Shown here: positions 3,732 to 30,303 of the stretch, one piece after another | How positions within the stretch are numbered: position 1 is the stretch's first letter | Layout of the letters: every line of letters begins with the position of its first letter | DNA from: Roseobacter sp. MH60115 | Lineage (GTDB): Bacteria; Pseudomonadota; Alphaproteobacteria; Rhodobacterales; Rhodobacteraceae | Length of the DNA stretch: 64,000 nucleotides | Reading direction: 5' to 3' | NCBI RefSeq assembly: GCF_015644665.1 | Contig: NZ_JADOBQ010000003.1 | Coordinates: 124,001-188,000 of the forward strand | The notes under the pieces: model-generated | Databases searched by the model: none | Seen by the model: only the letters and a program-made list of their open reading frames with translations | What the model was told of the DNA's origin: nothing | Translations under genes and position numbers: made by a program

Positions 3732-4781
3732 TTAGACGTCGGCACGCGCGAAGCTTTCAAAAAACGCATCGAAGCGGTCAGAGGATTGTTCTGCGCCGCT
3801 GAGGATGTCTTCCCCGTCCTGGCCAACCGCATCCGTCATCGCTGCCCGCATCTGGCTCCAGTCATTGCTGCGTGCCGGTCCAAGGTGGAACATATACTCC
3901 GACATTGCCCGCAACGGCCCCTTGCGCGCCGCATGCCGTGCGACGTAGAGCCCGGTGGAACATGCCTCACCGGGAAAGCTGGGACGATCCGCAAACTGCG
4001 CCCACCAGCAGGTCACCAGATACTCATGATAGGCATCAGAGCCTTTCGGGCCATCCGCTTTCAGCACGAAGCCGCCCATTTCCTGCGCAATCCAATCTTC
4101 CCAAATCGCACTTGGCCGCTTCCCGGAAAAGCGCATGGCCACGCAGATTTCCGCAAGTAAATCAATGTCCTGATCCAGATAGGCCAGCAGGCCGGCAAAC
4201 TCGAGACTGGCAGTGGCCGCGTCCTCCAGATGTGGATCAACCAGGCCATAGTCCGACAGGTAGAATACGATATGGGTCAGCTCGTAGGCGGCCTTCTTGT
4301 TCGGCAGCGTGAAGGTTTCGGAGCGGTTGATGAACCGGTGCAACCGTTCTGTCAGCATGACATCTTCGCTGCCCACGCCGCGTCTCTTCAGCAATCGCTG
4401 CGCCTCGGCGCGTTGCAGATCGGAAAGCTCGGCTTCGACAAGCCCCATTTTCGCGACCCAACGGCAGAGTTCCGTGCCCTTGCCGCTGCCCAGCCCGAGA
4501 TCTTCAAGGTCGAGACAGATTGACAGCAGGAACCGGTAGTATTGGGGGAAGAACCGCAGCCGCTCGTCGAGACCGTCGTAGACACGGCGATAAGGGGCCA
4601 ACGCGCTCTCCGGCAGCATCGCACCGCTGCTCGCCAGCACATTCAGAACTTCGGCATTTTCCTTCAGCCAGAACACATCGTCCGGGCTACGCCTGTTGCA
4701 GGCAAAATTTCCGATCAGTACGGTCTGGCGTTCTGCCAGATCCAATCTACGCGGCAGACCCAAAGAGACGACGTTAGACAT
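3732..4781 (-). CDS. Uncharacterised helical protein, partner of the upstream repeat peptide
   Basis: This is a 349-residue protein of unknown function. The start at 4781 is chosen because AGGAAG lies upstream; a longer in-frame extension to about 5018 would run through an intercistronic hairpin and the neighbouring gene. The sequence looks mostly alpha-helical, without a signal peptide or membrane segment. A distinctive stretch is ELTHIVFYLSDYG near the middle, and there are several tryptophan- and cysteine-containing segments. I do not recognise a catalytic motif. It may correspond to a Rhodobacterales family of unknown function (DUF6902, from memory and unverified). It follows the peptide gene by 88 bases on the same strand, which suggests one transcript and a shared role. 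Confidence 0.75.
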   Translation of the reverse strand: MSNVVSLGLPRRLDLAERQTVLIGNFACNRRSPDDVFWLKENAEVLNVLASSGAMLPESALAPYRRVYDGLDERLRFFPQYYRFLLSICLDLEDLGLGSGKGTELCRWVAKMGLVEAELSDLQRAEAQRLLKRRGVGSEDVMLTERLHRFINRSETFTLPNKKAAYELTHIVFYLSDYGLVDPHLEDAATASLEFAGLLAYLDQDIDLLAEICVAMRFSGKRPSAIWEDWIAQEMGGFVLKADGPKGSDAYHEYLVTCWWAQFADRPSFPGEACSTGLYVARHAARKGPLRAMSEYMFHLGPARSNDWSQMRAAMTDAVGQDGEDILSGAEQSSDRFDAFFESFARADV

Positions 4782-4825
4782 GGGGGTTCTTCCTTTGTCC
4801 GATGGATCTGCCGCGCAAGGCTCAT

Positions 4826-4855
4826 GACCGGGCGAGATGGGTGTCGGGCCCGGTC
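4826..4855 (-). terminator. Intercistronic hairpin between repeat peptide and partner gene
   Basis: The arms GACCGGGC (4826-4833) and GCCCGGTC (4848-4855) are exactly complementary, with a 14-base loop. No T-run follows, so it is more likely a partial terminator or an mRNA-stabilising structure than a full stop. Such structures commonly let a small upstream peptide be expressed in excess over the downstream gene. Confidence 0.6.
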
Positions 4856-4869
4856 CAGAAGCCCTGTGG

Positions 4870-5151
4870 TTACATGGAGGTCGTGAACAGACCGGTTGCA
4901 TCACCCGAGAGCGCGTCGCGGCCTGCGACCATGCTGGTGGTGAACTGACCGGTTTCAGCACCGGACAGGGTGTCTGCTTCGGGGGCCATCGACGTGGTGA
5001 AAAGCTCGGTGGCCTCACCGCGCATCATGTCGCCGCTTGCCGGGCCCATGCTGGTGGTGAAAAGTGCGGTACCTGCGCCGCTGTGCAGGTCTGTTTCAAC
5101 GGCAAATGTGTCTTCGAGTGCGGGTGTCGCAAACAGTACGTTCGTCTTCAT
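4870..5151 (-). CDS. Repeat peptide with four C-terminal-type FTTSM units (possible multi-core precursor)
   Basis: This is a 93-residue peptide of unknown function. The start at 5151 has AAAGGGAT upstream. Residues 1-20 form a leader-like segment without repeats. Four copies of a 15-residue unit follow at residues 21-35, 41-55, 60-74 and 79-93. Each has the pattern D-x-x-(S/R)-G-x-x-T-x-(L/Q)-F-T-T-S-M. The units are separated by 4-5 small or charged residues, and the last ends exactly at the C terminus. There are no cysteines and no hydrophobic signal peptide. The organisation resembles a multi-core modified-peptide precursor. A repetitive structural or secreted peptide is the alternative. 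It may match a Rhodobacterales family of unknown function (DUF6749, from memory and unverified). Confidence 0.75.
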   Translation of the reverse strand: MKTNVLFATPALEDTFAVETDLHSGAGTALFTTSMGPASGDMMRGEATELFTTSMAPEADTLSGAETGQFTTSMVAGRDALSGDATGLFTTSM

Positions 5152-5499
5152 CGCATATCCCTTTCAAATGAAGTTTTTCGCCCTTTCACGCTTGCCCGTT
5201 TAAGGAGAGTTTCCAATAAATTTTCACGTTAAGAATGTGTTAACCACTAGTTATCCACAATAGGGTCGCGCCCTACCGACTGACGGTGCCGCGAAACTCA
5301 CTTTGGTAACCTTGGTTAATTTTTTTTTATCCACAGTGGATAAATATGTGGATATTAACTTATAACTGCCGTTTTTCGTTAACCGTTAACGAGAATCACT
5401 GGAATCACCTCCAGTCCGGCGGAAATTTTGGCCCCACTGCGGCGCTTGCTCTGACCTTCTGATTGCGCGATAGCTTGCACATATCTCGGGAGGGCCGAC
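5152..5499. other. AT-rich intergenic region with DnaA-box cluster
   Basis: This 348-base gap separates the divergent repeat-peptide gene and xthA. It is clearly richer in A+T than its surroundings, with runs such as eight or more T near 5321 and several TTAAC/GTTAAC words. It contains the DnaA boxes annotated separately and two GANTC (CcrM methylation) sites at 5393-5397 and 5402-5406. No protein-coding gene is apparent. It must contain both divergent promoters. Confidence 0.7.
5251..5355. promoter_or_regulatory. Cluster of four DnaA boxes
   Basis: Two perfect TTATCCACA boxes occur on the plus strand at 5251-5259 and 5327-5335. Two one-mismatch boxes occur on the minus strand at 5335-5343 (TTATCCACT) and 5347-5355 (ATATCCACA). 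The last three lie within 29 bases, next to T-rich DNA. This could be a DnaA-controlled promoter region or part of a replication origin. The sequence alone does not decide. Confidence 0.65.
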
Positions 5500-6394: not shown

Positions 6395-7762
6395 ATGAAA
6401 GACCCCTTTGTGCGATACCCGCTGATTGCGTACCTCTTGCCGCTGATCTTCCTGTTTGCAGGGCCCGCCACCTGGGCGCAGGCCGATATCATCGGCGCGC
6501 AACGGCTGGTGTTGTCCAGCCCGGATCTGATCGATGACCTGACCCCGAAGATGCAGGAGATTCTGACCCGCGCCAATGGACGCCGCGACAGAGATCTGAT
6601 GGTGCGCATTTGGTATCCGGCACGGGCCCCACTGGATGCGGACAGCCGAAAGCACTACGGGTTTCACAGTGACGCGGTCGATTTTGCCATCGATCCGGAT
6701 GGCAGGCACAATATTCTGGACAAACTGCAGAACCGCAAACGGCGCAGCAATACCTATCAGAATGCCATACCAGACACGTCGCGGGCCTTGCCGGTCATCC
6801 TTTATTCGCACGGAAACGGCAACGCGGCAGAGGCGAATGAACCCTATTTCGAAGCATTGGTTGCGCGTGGGTATATCGTGGTCTCCATCGGCCACAGCTA
6901 TTCCGCCAGCCTGGTCACGCTGCAAAACGGCCGCGTCGCCAAGGTCGACAGCGCGCTGCAGGACTACGTCGACAGCGAAATCCCGGAGGAGGCGCGAGAT
7001 TCGGCCCTTACCTTTGATCAGGCCAGTGCCGATGCCCTCGCCGCCTTGCCTCTAGGGGCCGCGCCACGCGACGATCTATTGGACCGGTATCACTATAGCG
7101 TTTCCGGCGCGCGGATGGGCGCCCGCGCACAGCTTGCCCTCTGGGTTGCCGATATCCGGTTTGTTCTCTCGGCGCTGGCGGACATCAACGCGCCCGGCGG
7201 TGCAGAGGGGTTGAGCGGGCTGTTTGATCTGTCCCGCATCGGTGCGGTCGGCCATTCCTTTGGCGGGGCGGCCTCCCGGCATTTTTGTGACCGCGAGCCG
7301 CGGTGCAAGGTCTCCATCAACATGGACGGGACCGACCCGACGCAGCGAGGGGAACGCATCCGCGACCCCCACATGCGGTACTATTTCGACGTCAAGGCAC
7401 AGGTCGCGCAGGAAGTCCGCGATGGCGCCCACAGGGACCGGGAGTTTCTGCGCCTTGTGCGCAAGCTTTTCCACCAGAGACAGGTGCATGAGACCCATGC
7501 GATGATCGCGGCAGCGGACAGCGACCTCGTTGTCCTGAGCCCGCGGAAGATTTCGCATCTGGATTTCACCATCGGCTGGCTGAACCTGCACCGCTACGGG
7601 CCCGGCAAACGCATTTGGCAGCGGGTGATCCGGCAAACCTCCCTGCCCTTTCTCGATCTGCACCTGAAACCCGACACGACGGGTGAGGCGCCAAAGGAGA
7701 TCTGCGAAACCCTCGAAAAACCGCGCGGATTTCGGCTGATCTATACAAATCTATGTGGCTAG
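6395..7762 (+). CDS. Secreted alpha/beta hydrolase (dienelactone/PAF-acetylhydrolase-like)
   Basis: The 455-residue protein begins with a basic N terminus and a hydrophobic segment ending at an AQA-type cleavage site near residue 30, so export is likely. The alpha/beta hydrolase features are the oxyanion region YSHGNGN and the nucleophile elbow GHSFGG with Ser288. Substrate is unknown. It resembles predicted dienelactone hydrolase or platelet-activating-factor acetylhydrolase-like proteins. No strong ribosome site precedes the ATG, so the exact start is less certain. A second secreted hydrolase of the same general class lies at 8608. Confidence 0.8.
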   Translation: MKDPFVRYPLIAYLLPLIFLFAGPATWAQADIIGAQRLVLSSPDLIDDLTPKMQEILTRANGRRDRDLMVRIWYPARAPLDADSRKHYGFHSDAVDFAIDPDGRHNILDKLQNRKRRSNTYQNAIPDTSRALPVILYSHGNGNAAEANEPYFEALVARGYIVVSIGHSYSASLVTLQNGRVAKVDSALQDYVDSEIPEEARDSALTFDQASADALAALPLGAAPRDDLLDRYHYSVSGARMGARAQLALWVADIRFVLSALADINAPGGAEGLSGLFDLSRIGAVGHSFGGAASRHFCDREPRCKVSINMDGTDPTQRGERIRDPHMRYYFDVKAQVAQEVRDGAHRDREFLRLVRKLFHQRQVHETHAMIAAADSDLVVLSPRKISHLDFTIGWLNLHRYGPGKRIWQRVIRQTSLPFLDLHLKPDTTGEAPKEICETLEKPRGFRLIYTNLCG

Positions 7763-7815: not shown

Positions 7816-8412
7816 CTAGGCTTCGAGTTCCGCATCCCAGTAGAGGAAATCCATCCAGCTTTCGTGCAGATGGTTGGGCGGGAACTTGCGGCCCATGTTG
7901 CGCAGCTCTTCCGCACCCGGCTGGCGTGGCGGTTTGCGCAGGGAAAGACCCGTGCGGTGCAGCGGTTTAGACCCTTTCTTGAGGTTGCAGGGCGAACAGG
8001 CCGCCACCACATTCTGCCAACTGGTCACACCACCAGAGGCACGCGGTACCACGTGATCGAAGGTCAACTCCCCCTTGGCGCCACAATACTGACAACGAAA
8101 TTCATCCCTCAGAAATAAATTAAAGCGCGTGAAGGCCACGCGCTTTTGAGGTTTTACATAGTCTTTCAGAACGACGACCGACGGAATTCTGATTTCCGTA
8201 CTGGGGCTTCGGACGATGTCGTCATATTCGGCGACGATGTCCACCCGGTCGAGCCAGGCCGCCTTGACCGCCTCCTGCCAGGGCCAGAGCGATAGCGGGT
8301 AGTAACTCAAGGGGCGATAATCCGCGTTCAGCACCAGCGCGGGTCGGTGCCTCAGGCTCGCAGGGTTGCGGGTAAAATCCGTTCTGAAATCGCCGTCCAT
8401 GATTACACGCAC
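7816..8412 (-). CDS. HNH endonuclease
   Basis: This is a 198-residue HNH nuclease of the type common as a single housekeeping-like gene in alphaproteobacteria. Two CxxC pairs are visible (Cys107/Cys110 and Cys139/Cys142), bracketing the DH of the catalytic core (Asp119-His120) and Asn134. They match a zinc-stabilised beta-beta-alpha metal finger. The start may be GTG at 8412 or ATG at 8400; the AAAGGG upstream suits the ATG slightly better. There is no adjacent methylase, so it is not an obvious restriction system. Its biological role is unknown. Confidence 0.85.
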   Translation of the reverse strand: MRVIMDGDFRTDFTRNPASLRHRPALVLNADYRPLSYYPLSLWPWQEAVKAAWLDRVDIVAEYDDIVRSPSTEIRIPSVVVLKDYVKPQKRVAFTRFNLFLRDEFRCQYCGAKGELTFDHVVPRASGGVTSWQNVVAACSPCNLKKGSKPLHRTGLSLRKPPRQPGAEELRNMGRKFPPNHLHESWMDFLYWDAELEA

Positions 8413-8554
8413 CCTTTGCCGTTCCGCGTCCGGTCCAGCGGGCCAGTCCCGCCGATAGGCCGACTATATCTCGTGGTTTGCGTCTTGCAAGCCCCTGTTT
8501 GACCACAACATGTCGCAGGATGCATAGGGTAACACGGTAACGGTTAAGTGACAG

Positions 8555-8563
8555 TTATCCACA
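8555..8563 (+). promoter_or_regulatory. Single perfect DnaA box upstream of HNH gene
   Basis: TTATCCACA lies in the 195-base gap upstream of the HNH gene, within an AT-richer stretch that also has repeated GGTAAC/GGTTAA words. A perfect 9-mer is expected by chance at intervals of tens of kilobases or more at this base composition, so regulatory meaning is plausible but unproven. Confidence 0.4.
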
Positions 8564-8607
8564 AGGTCCGGCACAACCCTGAAACGGCGGAACCGGACCT
8601 TGTGTCC

Positions 8608-9663
8608 TTAGTGCTGAGCCACAACGCCAGTGGCCCGCAGATGCGTGATGATCAGATCATAGATGCGATCGTGCTGGGCAATCCGGGCGTCCTGCCCTTT
8701 GACACAGACGATCTCATCTCCCGGCTCTTCGCGCTTGAGCAATTCGTATCCGCCTTCGACACAGACGCCCATGAAATCGAAGTGACCGGCATCTTCCACC
8801 TCAACATGGGTGACAAGGTTTTCCGGCAGGTTAGCCACCAGAGCACGGGATTCGATGGTCTGGTCCAGCATGTCCTGACGTCCGGAGCCGAGGACCAGCA
8901 CGGGGATGTCGATCTCCGCAAGGCTGTCGGGCGCAAATGTCTGTGTGCCCCCCAGATCAAGCGGGATCACGGTGCGCAGGCGCGGATCGGACCGATCGCT
9001 TTGCAGGTCTTCAAGGTCATCGGGGCTGTGCCCCACCTTCCACATCTCCAGCGCCGCGCAATCCGGCCGCGCCGCGGCATCCGCACAACTTTGATTGAAG
9101 TGGGCCACATCGTGCCGGGCCCCGGCGGCGGCCATGACCGTGTAGCCGCCCAGCGAATGGCCCGCGGCGGCCACCCGCGTCGGGTCCATGTGGTCGGCAA
9201 ACCGCGGGTCGGTCAGCAGTTGGTCAAAGCTAACGCTGAGATCGGTGGCGCGCAGCCACAGCTGGCGCGCCTGATCGGGGTCACGCCCGAAGCTTGTGGT
9301 GCCGGGGTGGTTGGGCTGCACAACGATGATCCCGTCAGCAGCGAGCCGTTTGGCCAGCCAAGCCTGGTTCATCGAGTTGCCGTACATGCCGTGTGACATC
9401 ATCACCACCGGAAAGACACCGGGTGCAATGCGGGCATCGAGATGGCCGGAAATGTTGCGCCAGACGGCGCTGCCCTTGAGCAACCGTTCCGGCTCTTGCG
9501 ACAGCGACGGGTACCACACATGCCCTTCCAGCACGCGATCCGTCTCCCTATGCGCCGCGCGGTATTCGGCGACGGCGGGGGCGAAATCGGCGGCATCCGC
9601 CGTCGCTGCAAATCCCAGAATAATGGCCGCCGACAGGCAGAATTGGCGAAGATTGGTGTTCAT
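8608..9663 (-). CDS. Secreted alpha/beta hydrolase
   Basis: The 351-residue protein starts at the ATG at 9663, which has GAGG 6 bases upstream; an upstream in-frame start exists but lacks a ribosome site and would place the signal peptide internally. The N terminus has a signal peptide ending in ATADAADF. The catalytic elbow is GHSLGGY with Ser170, and SHGMYGN fits the oxyanion region. An Asp and a His in the C-terminal third (EDAGHFDF) complete a likely triad. The divergent AraC-type regulator next door is its probable regulator. Confidence 0.8.
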   Translation of the reverse strand: MNTNLRQFCLSAAIILGFAATADAADFAPAVAEYRAAHRETDRVLEGHVWYPSLSQEPERLLKGSAVWRNISGHLDARIAPGVFPVVMMSHGMYGNSMNQAWLAKRLAADGIIVVQPNHPGTTSFGRDPDQARQLWLRATDLSVSFDQLLTDPRFADHMDPTRVAAAGHSLGGYTVMAAAGARHDVAHFNQSCADAAARPDCAALEMWKVGHSPDDLEDLQSDRSDPRLRTVIPLDLGGTQTFAPDSLAEIDIPVLVLGSGRQDMLDQTIESRALVANLPENLVTHVEVEDAGHFDFMGVCVEGGYELLKREEPGDEIVCVKGQDARIAQHDRIYDLIITHLRATGVVAQH

Positions 9664-9790
9664 GTCAGACCTCATGAATTGGTGTTGCGATGATCCTGAC
9701 TTGAGCAAAGAGCCGTTTTCGGGCAATGCCTTGACTGTCCTGAAACGGCTTTCAGGACAGCTCTACGCAATCGAGGACAGGCCTGCCCCC

Positions 9791-26180: not shown

Positions 26181-29100
26181 TCAGCTACACCCGGACGTCC
26201 CGCCGCAGGTGTTGCACTTCATACACGTCCCGTTGCGCACCAGCGTGTAGTTGCCGCATTCGCCGCAGGCTTCACCCTCGTAGCCCTGCATCTTGGCCTT
26301 GGTGCGGGCGTCCATGCTGACCGATCCGCTGGTGACCGCCGTGGTGGCCATGGCCACCGCGACGCTGCCCTCGGAGACCGGGGCGAGCCCGTCGAAGGCA
26401 ACCGCTTCCTCCGCAAAGCCCTGCTGGCCACCCTGAAGCACCACCAACTCTTGCGGCAGACGTTTGCGCAGGTACCCGGTGGAGCTGATTTGTTTCAGCA
26501 CTTCCAGTGACTTTGTTGCAGCAGTTTCAGAGAGTTCCGAGACGTTGCTCACCCCTTCTTCTTCGCCGCGCCCCAGATCGTCGAAGGTATGCCCCTCAGG
26601 CTGAACATGCGCCAGATCGGTGCGGTCGAGGTAGGAGACGGCCAATTCCCGGAACACGTAGTCGAGGATCGAGGTCGCGTTCTTGATGGTCTCATTGCCC
26701 TGCACCATGCCCGCAGGCTCGAATTTGGTAAAGGTGAAGGCATCGACGAACTCCTCCAGCGGCACGCCGTACTGCAGACCCACCGAGACGGCGATCGCGA
26801 AGTTGTTCATCATTGCCCGGAAGCCCGCACCCTCTTTGTGCATGTCGATGAAGATCTCGCCCAGGTTGCCGTCTTCGTACTCGCCCGTACGGAGATAGAC
26901 CTTGTGGCCGCCAACGATGGCCTTTTGCGTGTAGCCCTTGCGCCGTTGCGGCATCTTCTCGCGGTGCGATTTGACGATTTCCTTGACCACAACTTTTTCG
27001 ACGATCTTTTCAGCGAGCACGACCGCCTTTTCCTGCTGCGAGCCGCTTTCCAGCACCTCCTGCGCGTCGTCGTCATCCTCGACCAAGGCTGCCGCGAGCG
27101 GTTGGCTGAGCTTCGAGCCATCGCGGTAGAGCGCGTTGGCCTTCACCCCCAGCGACCAACTGAGTTCATAGGCTTTCTGGCAGTCCTCGATGGTCGCGTC
27201 ATTCGGCATGTTGATCGTCTTGGAGATCGCCCCCGAAATGAAGCTCTGCGCCGCGGCCATCATGGTGATGTGGCTGTTCACGGAAAGGAAGCGCTTGCCT
27301 TGCTTGCCGCAGGGGTTGGCGCAGTCGAAGATCGGCAGGTGCTCCTCCTTGAGGAAGGGCGCGCCTTCCAGCGTCATGGTCCCGCAGACGTGATCATTGG
27401 CCGCATCAATGTCCGCTTTCGAGAAGCCCAGGTGTTTGAGCAGATCAAAGGTTGGATCGTTCAGTTTTTCGGCAGGGATGCCAAGCACTTGCGTGCAGAA
27501 CTCTTCGCCGAGCGTCCACTGATTGAAGACAAAGCGAATGTCAAAGGCCGAGGCCAGTGCCGCATCCACCTTGGCCAATTCATTGGCGCCGAAGCCGTGA
27601 CCCGCAAGCGAGGTGTGGTTGATCCCCGGCGCATTGCCGATGGTGCCGTGACCTACCGCGTAGGAGACGATCTCCTCGATTTGCGCGGACCCATAGCCCA
27701 ACTTTTCAAGGGCGGCAGGCACCGACTGGTTGATGATCTTGAAGTAGCCACCACCGGCCAGCTTCTTGAACTTCACCAGCGCGAAGTCGGGCTCGATGCC
27801 TGTGGTATCGCAGTCCATGACCAGACCGATGGTGCCGGTGGGTGCGATCACGGAGACCTGCGCATTGCGATAGCCATGCTTCTCGCCCAGCTCCAGCGCC
27901 TGATCCCAGGCACCGCGCGCCACGTCGATCAACCGATCATCGGGGCAGTTCTTGTAGTCGAGCGGGACCGGCATGACGGAGAGGTCTTCGTAGCCGCCCA
28001 CTTTGCCGTTTGCCGCGTTGCGGTGGTTGCGGATGACCCGCAGCATGTGCTGCGCGTTCTTGGCATAGCCCGGGAAAGCGCCCAGCTCGCCCGCCATTTC
28101 GGCGGAGGTGGCATAGCTCACCCCGGTCATGATGGCGGTCAGGGCGCCACAGAGGCTGCGGCCCTCATCGCTGTCGTAGGAATAGCCCATGTTCATCAGC
28201 AGGCCGCCGATGTTCGCATAGCCCAGACCCAGTGTCCGGAAGTCGTAGGAGCGTTGCGCAATCTCCTTCGACGGGAACTGCGCCATCATCACGGAGATTT
28301 CCAGCGTCACGGTCCAGAGACGCGTGGCGTGCATGTAATCTTCGACCTGGAACGTGCCGTCCTTGAGGAAGGTCAGCAGGTTCATCGACGCCAGGTTACA
28401 GGCCGTGTCGTCGAGGAACATGTACTCCGAGCAGGGGTTGGAGCCGCGGATCGCCCCATCTTCCGGGCAAGTGTGCCAGTCGTTCACTGTGTCGTGATAC
28501 TGGATGCCGGGATCGGCACAGGCCCAGGCGGCGTGGCCGATCTGCTCCCACAACTCGCGGGCCTTCACAGTCTTGGTGACCTTGCCATCGACCCGGTTGA
28601 TCAACTCCCAATCGGCGTCCTTTTCGACGGCGGTCAGGAAAGCGTTTGTGACGCGGATCGAGTTGTTGGAGTTCTGCCCGGAGACGGAGTTATACGCCTC
28701 GGAGTCCCAATCGGTGTCGTATGTTGGGAACTCGATGGAAGTGTGGCCCTGCTTGGCATAGTCCAGCACGCGCTTGACGTAAGTCTCTGGGATAGATACT
28801 TTTTTCGCCGCGCGGATCGCTGTTTTCAGCGCGTCATTCTTGGCGGGGTCATAGGCATCGGCTTCCGCCCCGTCCCATGTCTTGATCGCCTCGAAAAGAC
28901 CGTTGAGCTTCTGCTCGTGCATCTTGGAGCCCGCGACGATGCTCGCCACTTTCTGCTCTTCGATGACCTTCCAGTTGATGAAATCCTGGATGTCCGGGTG
29001 ATCCGCGTCGACGATCACCATCTTGGCGGCCCGGCGCGTGGTGCCACCCGATTTGATGGCCCCCGCCGCACGGTCACCGATTTTCAGGAAGCCCATCAGC

Positions 29101-29834
29101 CCGGATGAACGGCCCCCACCGGACAGGCTCTCTCCCGCAGCCCGCAGGCTGGAGAAATTGGTGCCGGTGCCGGAGCCGTATTTGAACAGACGCGCTTCCC
29201 GCACCCACAGATCCATGATGCCGCCGTCGTTTACGAGGTCGTCTGAGACAGACTGGATGAAGCAGGCATGCGGTTGTGGGTGCTCGTAGGAAGATTTGGA
29301 TTTGGTCAATTTGCCGGATTTGTAATCGACATAGTGGTGCCCCTGGGCCGGGCCGTCGATGCCATAGGCCCAATGCAGGCCGGTGTTGAACCACTGCGGG
29401 CTGTTGGGGGCCGCGCGCTGGGAGGCCAGCATGTGGCGCATTTCGTCAAAGTAGGATTTGGCGTCGCTCTCGGAGGTGAAGTAGCCCCCCTTCCAGCCCC
29501 AATAGGCCCATGCGCCTGCCAAACGGTCGAAGACCTGTTTGGAGGAGGTTTCGCCGCCCATCTCCGCGCCCTCTGCGGGCACCGAGCGCCACAAGAATTC
29601 AGGCACGCCCTTTTCTTTCACCCGACGGGTTTTCGAGGGGACGCCCGCCTTGCGGAAATATTTCTGAGCAATGACGTCGCTGGCGACCTGGCTCCAGGAA
29701 CCGGGCACTTCGACCTCATCGAGGCGGAACACAACGGTGCCGTCCGGGTTGCGGATTTCCGATGCAGTCGTGACGAAATCGAGCTCTGCGTAAGCGTCTT
29801 GCCCGGCCTTGGTGAATTTACGTTCGATTTTCAT
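26181..29834 (-). CDS. nrdJ: Class II (adenosylcobalamin-dependent) ribonucleoside-diphosphate reductase
   Basis: The 1217-residue enzyme makes deoxyribonucleotides using adenosylcobalamin and does not need oxygen. The N-terminal half has the conserved RNR barrel, with [15 protein letters not shown], the [21 protein letters not shown] active-site loop and the [24 protein letters not shown] segment. The C terminus has a zinc-type cluster CGECGNY...CMKCNTCGG. Length and domain order fit the long alphaproteobacterial NrdJ. Upstream palindromes and a DnaA box suggest cell-cycle or NrdR control. A GIY-YIG gene begins 11 bases after the stop. Confidence 0.96.
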
Positions 29835-30048: not shown

Positions 30049-30294
30049 CGTCATCGTCGGCCTCCACAAACTGACGTATCTTGCCCTACCCGGTCAACGA
30101 TATTTTTAAGATTTTTTAAAGTTTACGGACTTGACGCATCCGCTGATTTGGTCTGCCCGGAGTGCGTTGTGATTCAAATCATTAACACCCGGTTAATATC
30201 CCCAAAGGACTGTTTACAAGTTGCCGTAACCGCCGGATGCAATAATCAAATGGTTTGGCTGATTTAGCTTGTCTGGCTTATGCAATGCTTGAAA

Positions 30295-30303
30295 TTATCC
30301 ACA
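30295..30303 (+). promoter_or_regulatory. Single perfect DnaA box upstream of nrdJ
   Basis: TTATCCACA occurs in AT-rich DNA about 460 bases upstream of the nrdJ start. Ribonucleotide reductase genes are controlled by DnaA in some bacteria, so a regulatory role is reasonable but unproven. Confidence 0.4.

Follow-up and report, generated by a model that had tools for sequence, protein, structure and literature searches.

Multi-core RiPP precursors, such as those of graspetides or cyanobactins, consist of a leader and several core copies separated by variable spacers. The yeast alpha-factor precursor likewise encodes one pheromone several times. MslH is a metal-dependent enzyme with a metallophosphatase-like fold. 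Titles in reference lists name MslH as the epimerase of the lasso peptide MS-271. A 2026 article cited by PMC13352647 (Shi et al., ACS Catal 2026) assigns, again according to its title, an epimerase role in the modification of lasso peptides to a DUF6895-family protein.

We analysed a 64,000-nucleotide stretch of DNA from Roseobacter sp. MH60115 (the window), which carries a repeat peptide gene and, downstream of it, a gene for a partner protein of the Pfam family DUF6902. Like the multi-core RiPP precursors, the Roseobacter peptide has a leader and core copies parted by variable spacers. Unlike in those precursors, the core here is mostly uniform per genome and is replaced wholesale between species, each unit joins a conserved recognition stretch to a free four-residue tail, and there is a single partner protein. 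As with alpha-factor, the product would be repeated in the precursor and have a lineage-specific sequence, but the system described here is bacterial, its peptide has no signal peptide by eye and its partner is a probable modifying enzyme. The peptide epimerisation that we propose would resemble that by MslH in acting at the C-terminal end of a ribosomal peptide, whereas DUF6902 is predicted to be all-alpha. With the DUF6895 lasso epimerase the likeness extends to the proteins themselves: the window partner passes the DUF6895 cut-off and has seven residues in common with four DUF6895 proteins, and four of the five DUF6895 genes read follow small precursor-like genes. In contrast to the lasso system, the peptide here is multi-core, DUF6902 is a separate Pfam family, and no lasso B protease or C cyclase genes lie beside the window pair. 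In the literature searched, which took in few subscription journals, we found neither an earlier description of the repeat-peptide system nor a publication naming DUF6902. Of the papers searched, PMC13352647 alone named either of the two Pfam families. The matches listed for the tail strings of the peptides were all unrelated.

A repeat peptide gene precedes a DUF6902 gene in the window

The initial annotation of the window had reported two open reading frames, and both were found on the minus strand, each with an ATG start and a TAA stop. The repeat peptide gene (93 aa) is located at 4870..5151 and the gene for the partner (349 aa), a candidate peptide-modifying enzyme, follows at 3732..4781 after a gap of 88 nt. 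The peptide has a leader of about 20 residues and then four 15-residue units, and the 15-residue pattern first described for these units holds in all four. They read D-L-H-S-G-A-G-T-A-L-FTTSM, D-M-M-R-G-E-A-T-E-L-FTTSM, D-T-L-S-G-A-E-T-G-Q-FTTSM and D-A-L-S-G-D-A-T-G-L-FTTSM. The corresponding FTTSM copies are encoded on the minus strand at 5047..5061, 4987..5001, 4930..4944 and 4873..4887 (from peptide residues 31, 51, 70 and 89, respectively), the fourth forming the C terminus, and are written with three different codon spellings. In 20,000 shuffles of the window peptide no pentamer occurred four times, and a pentamer occurred three times in 2 shuffles. The repeat-peptide feature is real and is conserved among relatives. 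The closest named loci among the matches listed are from uncultured Roseobacter, with partners 95-98% identical to that of the window.

The window peptide is predicted to be disordered (model mean pLDDT 41), and no signal peptide was seen in it by eye. NCBIfam and PHROGs gave nothing informative for the pair. Pfam matches to four repeat peptides were of low complexity and were discounted, including T6SS_Vgr, which passed its cut-off (24.4 vs 22.4 bits). A pattern scan detected no sigma-70-like promoter, and one terminator-like site compared to 2.0 in shuffles.

The peptide and its partner co-occur

Co-occurrence of the two genes had been proposed as a check, and it was borne out in a search of 196 genomes of the order. 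Using a peptide profile built from 14 close peptides, peptide and partner were both detected in 52 genomes, the partner only in five, the peptide only in none, and neither in 139 (Fisher 4e-42); the DUF6902 partner was present in 57. In three of the partner-only genomes (G097, G180 and G189), the script detected repeats that the profile had missed. In another (G073) we read by eye a divergent two-unit peptide with a C-terminal AQSFSAP. The last (G117) has no peptide, and its partner lacks otherwise conserved residues, with R at both Y166 and H170.

These 57 loci were combined with 80 more, the best 80 of 370 and thus the closest relatives, which partly overlap the 57 genomes, giving 137 partner loci of which some come from the same genomes. 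A repeat ORF was found upstream by script at 132 of them. At the remaining five, repeats were found by reading in L164, L167 and G073, were decayed in G150 and were absent from G117. Decay in G150 (locus L088) is joint: stops interrupt the DUF6902 gene, and the two tails of the peptide now disagree. At L160, from Roseovarius litorisediminis, the partner (4001-5050) has an internal stop, on account of which L160 was omitted from alignment A2, yet the peptide keeps four clean TSSM tails. Peptides without the partner, and repeats that are not conserved among relatives, were both searched for, and neither was found.

Tails are mostly uniform within a peptide and differ between peptides

Units were located with a finder that used only the seven positions up to the Phe. 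This gave 673 units, 2-15 per peptide, across 121 distinct peptides, which remained from 132 once identical repeat regions had been merged; entry required two agreeing tails (found at 132 of 137 loci), so the count leans slightly towards uniformity. The consensus unit is G-[DE]-[AG]-[TV]-x-[ML]-F followed by four tail residues and then usually A-P, and 480 of the 552 gaps between units measure 20 or 21 residues. Over the 121 peptides, identity at tail positions 1-4 was 0.98/0.95/0.92/0.90 within proteins compared to 0.48/0.53/0.42/0.27 between proteins, and the within-protein values were similar in the 90 peptides with at least four units (0.98/0.93/0.91/0.91). Within-protein identity at spacer positions -11 to -7 was just 0.19-0.33, a small excess over the between-protein level. 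All tails were identical in 97 of the 121 peptides, one tail was dominant in 11 and tails were mixed in 13; the last tail was the C terminus in 100.

We counted 36 tail strings, including SSGS, TSGS, TTSM, TTSC, TSSL, TSCA and TSWS; four of the 36 occur once and are probably misparsed. The first two tail positions are 98% Ser or Thr, and position 4 varies freely among relatives. The expectation that repeat number would vary around a fixed FTTSM was thus half right: the number varies, and it is uniformity within each protein, rather than FTTSM itself, that is kept. The initial annotation had also excluded thioether chemistry for want of cysteines. The window repeats are indeed Cys-free, but the tails of 27 of the 121 relatives carry Cys. 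Thioether chemistry as a family rule was rejected, since 48 of the 121 peptides have no Cys anywhere in the repeat region. On these sequences cysteine is dispensable family-wide, rather than thioether chemistry being excluded.

Among pairs of units with identical tails, 3783 of 7392 codon positions (51%) differ synonymously, indicating that tail identity is maintained at the protein level. Wholesale replacement is illustrated by L119, with FSSGS in 6/6 units, and L120, with FTSGS in 7/7; their spacers and partners are near identical and their codons differ. On a tree of 67 partners, comprising the named loci and the window with duplicates and short ones left out, a quick method found that the dominant tail had switched 21 times or more. 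The uniform tails would be explained by selection for a single product, by gene conversion confined to the tails, or by both together. Doubled tails were seen at two loci, L130 (MFSSCSVELFSSCS) and L068 of genome G148 (FTSGLTQMFTSGL); here a second copy of the tail follows eight or nine residues later, with no new recognition stretch before it.

The regular pitch of 20 or 21 residues is what one might see in a structural or adhesive repeat protein (a solenoid, or a protein of the surface or of biofilms) encoded next to DUF6902 by chance. We regard this explanation as highly improbable, given that the peptide has no signal peptide by eye and no predicted fold, that it co-occurs with the partner, and that its spacers vary while its tails are fixed.

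The partner matches DUF6902 and DUF6895 and is probably an alpha/alpha toroid

Contrary to the initial annotation, in which the partner had no recognisable motif, it matches two Pfam families. The match to DUF6902 covers residues 1-347 (E 7e-141, 469.6 bits vs a cut-off of 27), and that to DUF6895 covers residues 30-261 (E 3e-21, 76.6 bits vs a cut-off of 23.8). Structure prediction, proposed at the same time, proved informative: the AlphaFold model is all-helical over the first 260 residues (mean pLDDT 93.4). In VIA-align the leading match was the class II terpene cyclase 5bp8 (rmsd 4.2, 232 aligned, resting on model residues 13-266), with a Z of 11.9 that was the best obtained and lies in the range, below ~13, where matches between helical proteins can be mere arrangement. 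RabGGTase beta, squalene-hopene cyclase, complement thioester domains, transcobalamin and linalool dehydratase isomerase were also among the leading structures, which we take to be alpha/alpha toroids. The 50 VIA-align matches listed did not include LanC cyclases, an absence that excludes nothing. Foldseek with the partner model gave no match at E <= 0.001, and a profile search of PDB sequences gave one match, at E 0.57.

Conservation was then mapped onto the first twelve long helices, each taken with its four preceding residues. Conserved columns of alignment A1 (invariant or 90%) made up 58 of 109 positions on even helices compared to 13 of 108 on odd helices (p 6e-11). This suggests that the even helices form the inner ring of the model, and the partner is probably an alpha/alpha toroid. 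Y166, H170, F173, G179, D207, E211 and H252 were invariant in four DUF6902 and four DUF6895 proteins, a comparison of 8 sequences only, in which the two families are just 16-20% identical. Together, these features suggest that the DUF6902 partner is an enzyme, in which Y166, H170, D207, E211 and H252 may be catalytic. Judged by homology, epimerisation to D-residues would be its likeliest chemistry.

DUF6902 may instead modify the cores by other chemistry: it might, for instance, dehydrate, acylate or isomerise them, or cleave them where the Phe meets the tail. In favour of this are the Ser/Thr content of tail positions 1 and 2, the many chemistries that alpha/alpha toroids host (in terpene cyclases, prenyltransferases and a dehydratase-isomerase), and an identity to DUF6895 of just 16-20%. 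However, the sole function that we found reported in the superfamily, in an article title, is that of an epimerase, and the free variation at tail position 4 is easier to reconcile with a reaction on the backbone than with one specific to the side chain at that position. We therefore consider other chemistry possible but doubtful, and continue with epimerisation as the preferred proposal.

Small peptide genes also precede DUF6895 genes

DUF6895 was searched for in 289 genomes of the class and 398 of the phylum, two overlapping sets. Outside the DUF6902 set it scored above the cut-off in five genomes (G198, G572, G642, G787 and G018), while matches below the cut-off (G229, G248, G353, G545 and G555) were left out as members. 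A small peptide gene lies directly upstream of the DUF6895 gene, on the same strand, in G198, G572, G642 and G787, and none was seen beside the DUF6895 gene of G018. The peptide of L200 (143 aa; 8437-8868) has two copies of a sequence like G-x-E-L-x-GPW-x-x-x-KE, and that of L201 (138 aa; 7269-7685) has two copies of DWTFxSxNYVYKG. L199 encodes two peptides of 65 aa (7107-7703), one of which ends LVGPWFVLAGDQT, and the peptide of L183 (78 aa; 8462-8698) contains AWAFIVKGKFVFKD. By eye, these peptides have a common leader like LxxxGIIN-x-x-x-TLxxL, and their ends are aromatic (GPWFVL, DWTFxSxNYVYKG). None scored above a Pfam or NCBIfam cut-off, and from their sequences they are possibly a second undescribed precursor family. 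Having a peptide neighbour thus appears to be a habit of the DUF6895/DUF6902 superfamily, and this supports the view that DUF6902 acts on a peptide.

The operon has steady flanks and, in about half of loci, a coupled transporter gene

In the window, the neighbours of the pair are xthA, an erpA-like gene, dgt, argS and an ORF without an NCBIfam match, and most relatives have the same neighbours. The erpA-like gene is so called as it narrowly missed the ErpA model and passed that of a broader iron-sulfur accessory family. xthA is divergent upstream at 132 of the 137 loci and the erpA-like gene convergent downstream at 128, with both in place at 123. xthA is missing from five loci, but four of these are cut off before it could be seen, leaving L116 as a real absence; at least five of the nine without erpA are real departures (L128, L133, L141, L180 and G039/G066, with 3 kb read). 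We also inspected xthA in 20 partner-free genomes, hand-picked from the 139 among the better xthA matches. No DUF6902, repeat, DnaA box or TTAA-N7-TTAA was found upstream of xthA in these genomes, and the xthA start lies no more than ~510 nt from the end of erpA in 16 of them. A mobile or phage origin of the operon was rejected on the basis of the steady xthA/erpA flanks and of a tblastn search of 50,697 phage and 72,556 plasmid records, in which nothing matched at E <= 0.01.

A gene for an EamA-family transporter (PF00892) lies downstream of DUF6902 at 67 of the 137 loci; 2 of the 70 others are too short to tell. At 66 of the 67, the EamA start overlaps the DUF6902 stop (ATGA, GTGA or TTGA). 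The genus of the window is without this EamA gene, the closest homologue in the window's genome being just 32% identical. None of the neighbourhoods read showed a gene for a dedicated protease.

These observations bear on the proposal that the peptide is not a precursor at all but a multivalent, disordered scaffold that docks through its repeats to the toroid or to some other protein. A single docking pocket would yield uniform tails, the peptide is predicted to be disordered, toroids also bind ligands (transcobalamin, complement C3d/C4d), and no protease gene was seen nearby. A wholesale tail change between near-identical partners, as in L119 and L120, is harder to reconcile with a docking site, and the conservation of polar residues on alternate helices is cavity-like. 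The coupled transporter in half of the operons and the homology of the partner to a family with an epimerase reported by title also argue against a scaffold, which we consider rather unlikely.

The promoter region carries DnaA boxes and CtrA-like sites

Upstream of the peptide gene in the window lie a TTAA-N7-TTAA motif (5229..5243), which is a CtrA-like site, and TTATCCACA on the plus strand (5251..5259), with a second TTATCCACA at 5327..5335 (plus strand) that belongs to a second position class. We take TTATCCACA to be the perfect DnaA box consensus and TTAA-N7-TTAA to be the CtrA consensus. A perfect DnaA box has a shuffle mean of 0.14 per 64 kb for the window. Box positions were counted in 116 distinct upstream regions out of 126. 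A perfect DnaA box was found within 400 nt upstream of the peptide at 83 of these 116 operon loci compared to 0 of the 20 partner-free genomes (Fisher 5e-10), and the boxes fall into two position classes ~80 bp apart. TTAA-N7-TTAA was found in 26 of 118 upstream regions, compared to 0.85 expected from base shuffles; binned by distance from the start, the exact motif falls at -100 to -91 in 20 of 116 loci and in the next bin in 1 more. From these motifs, DnaA and CtrA may bind at the promoter boxes, and the operon is probably under the control of DnaA and, in some lineages, CtrA, and hence tied to the cell cycle.

A replication origin behind the DnaA boxes is disfavoured, as none of the 20 hand-picked partner-free genomes has a box at the xthA site. 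GC skew has no clear switch in the window. In the seven searched contigs longer than 3.8 Mb the locus is located at 33-67% of the contig, which, given undefined contig starts, is weak evidence against an origin; the locus can lie anywhere in smaller contigs (e.g. 95% in G170). In the window, the two sites recur together just once more, at 30182-30303, where TTAA-N7-TTAA and a perfect DnaA box lie ~100 bp apart upstream of a B12-dependent ribonucleotide reductase gene (26181-29834, minus strand). A further perfect DnaA box (8555-8563) lies between the minus-strand ORFs 7816-8412 and 8608-9726.

A proposed multi-core RiPP-like system

In the initial annotation the pair was read as a multi-core precursor and its partner. 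That reading has gained from the co-occurrence, the 2-15 repeats, the mostly uniform tails and the DUF6895 homology, and modification by the partner is what we infer from them. In the proposed mechanism, the small gene would give rise to a disordered precursor with a short leader and 2-15 units of ~20 residues. Each unit would comprise the recognition stretch G-[DE]-[AG]-[TV]-x-[ML]-F and a four-residue variable tail. The central cavity of the putative DUF6902 toroid would grip the recognition stretch, and DUF6902 would modify the Phe/tail segment of every unit, probably by epimerisation. Cleavage may then release the modified units as short peptides, all identical and each with the tail at its end, which, in about half of lineages, the coupled EamA transporter may export. 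The short peptides could finally act as a lineage-specific compound or signal.

Taken with the observed pairing, unit anatomy, within-protein uniformity, DUF6895 homology, helical fold prediction, transporter coupling and promoter boxes, we hold the whole reading, a multi-core RiPP-like system in which DUF6902 modifies, and perhaps epimerises, each core, with slightly more confidence than doubt. A fuller version, in which a new multi-core RiPP class is timed by DnaA/CtrA and a toroid epimerises each four-to-five-residue core into a D-peptide signal that is replaced in lockstep, is unlikely to hold in every part.

DUF6902 is present in 57 of the 196 sampled genomes of the order, which come from an abundant marine group, and the tail rule predicts the product sequence species by species. 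The lockstep replacement of one residue in all repeats between close relatives is an unusual evolutionary pattern. If the proposal is true, the operon would represent peptide modification free of an obvious cofactor domain and linked to a cell-cycle-type promoter.
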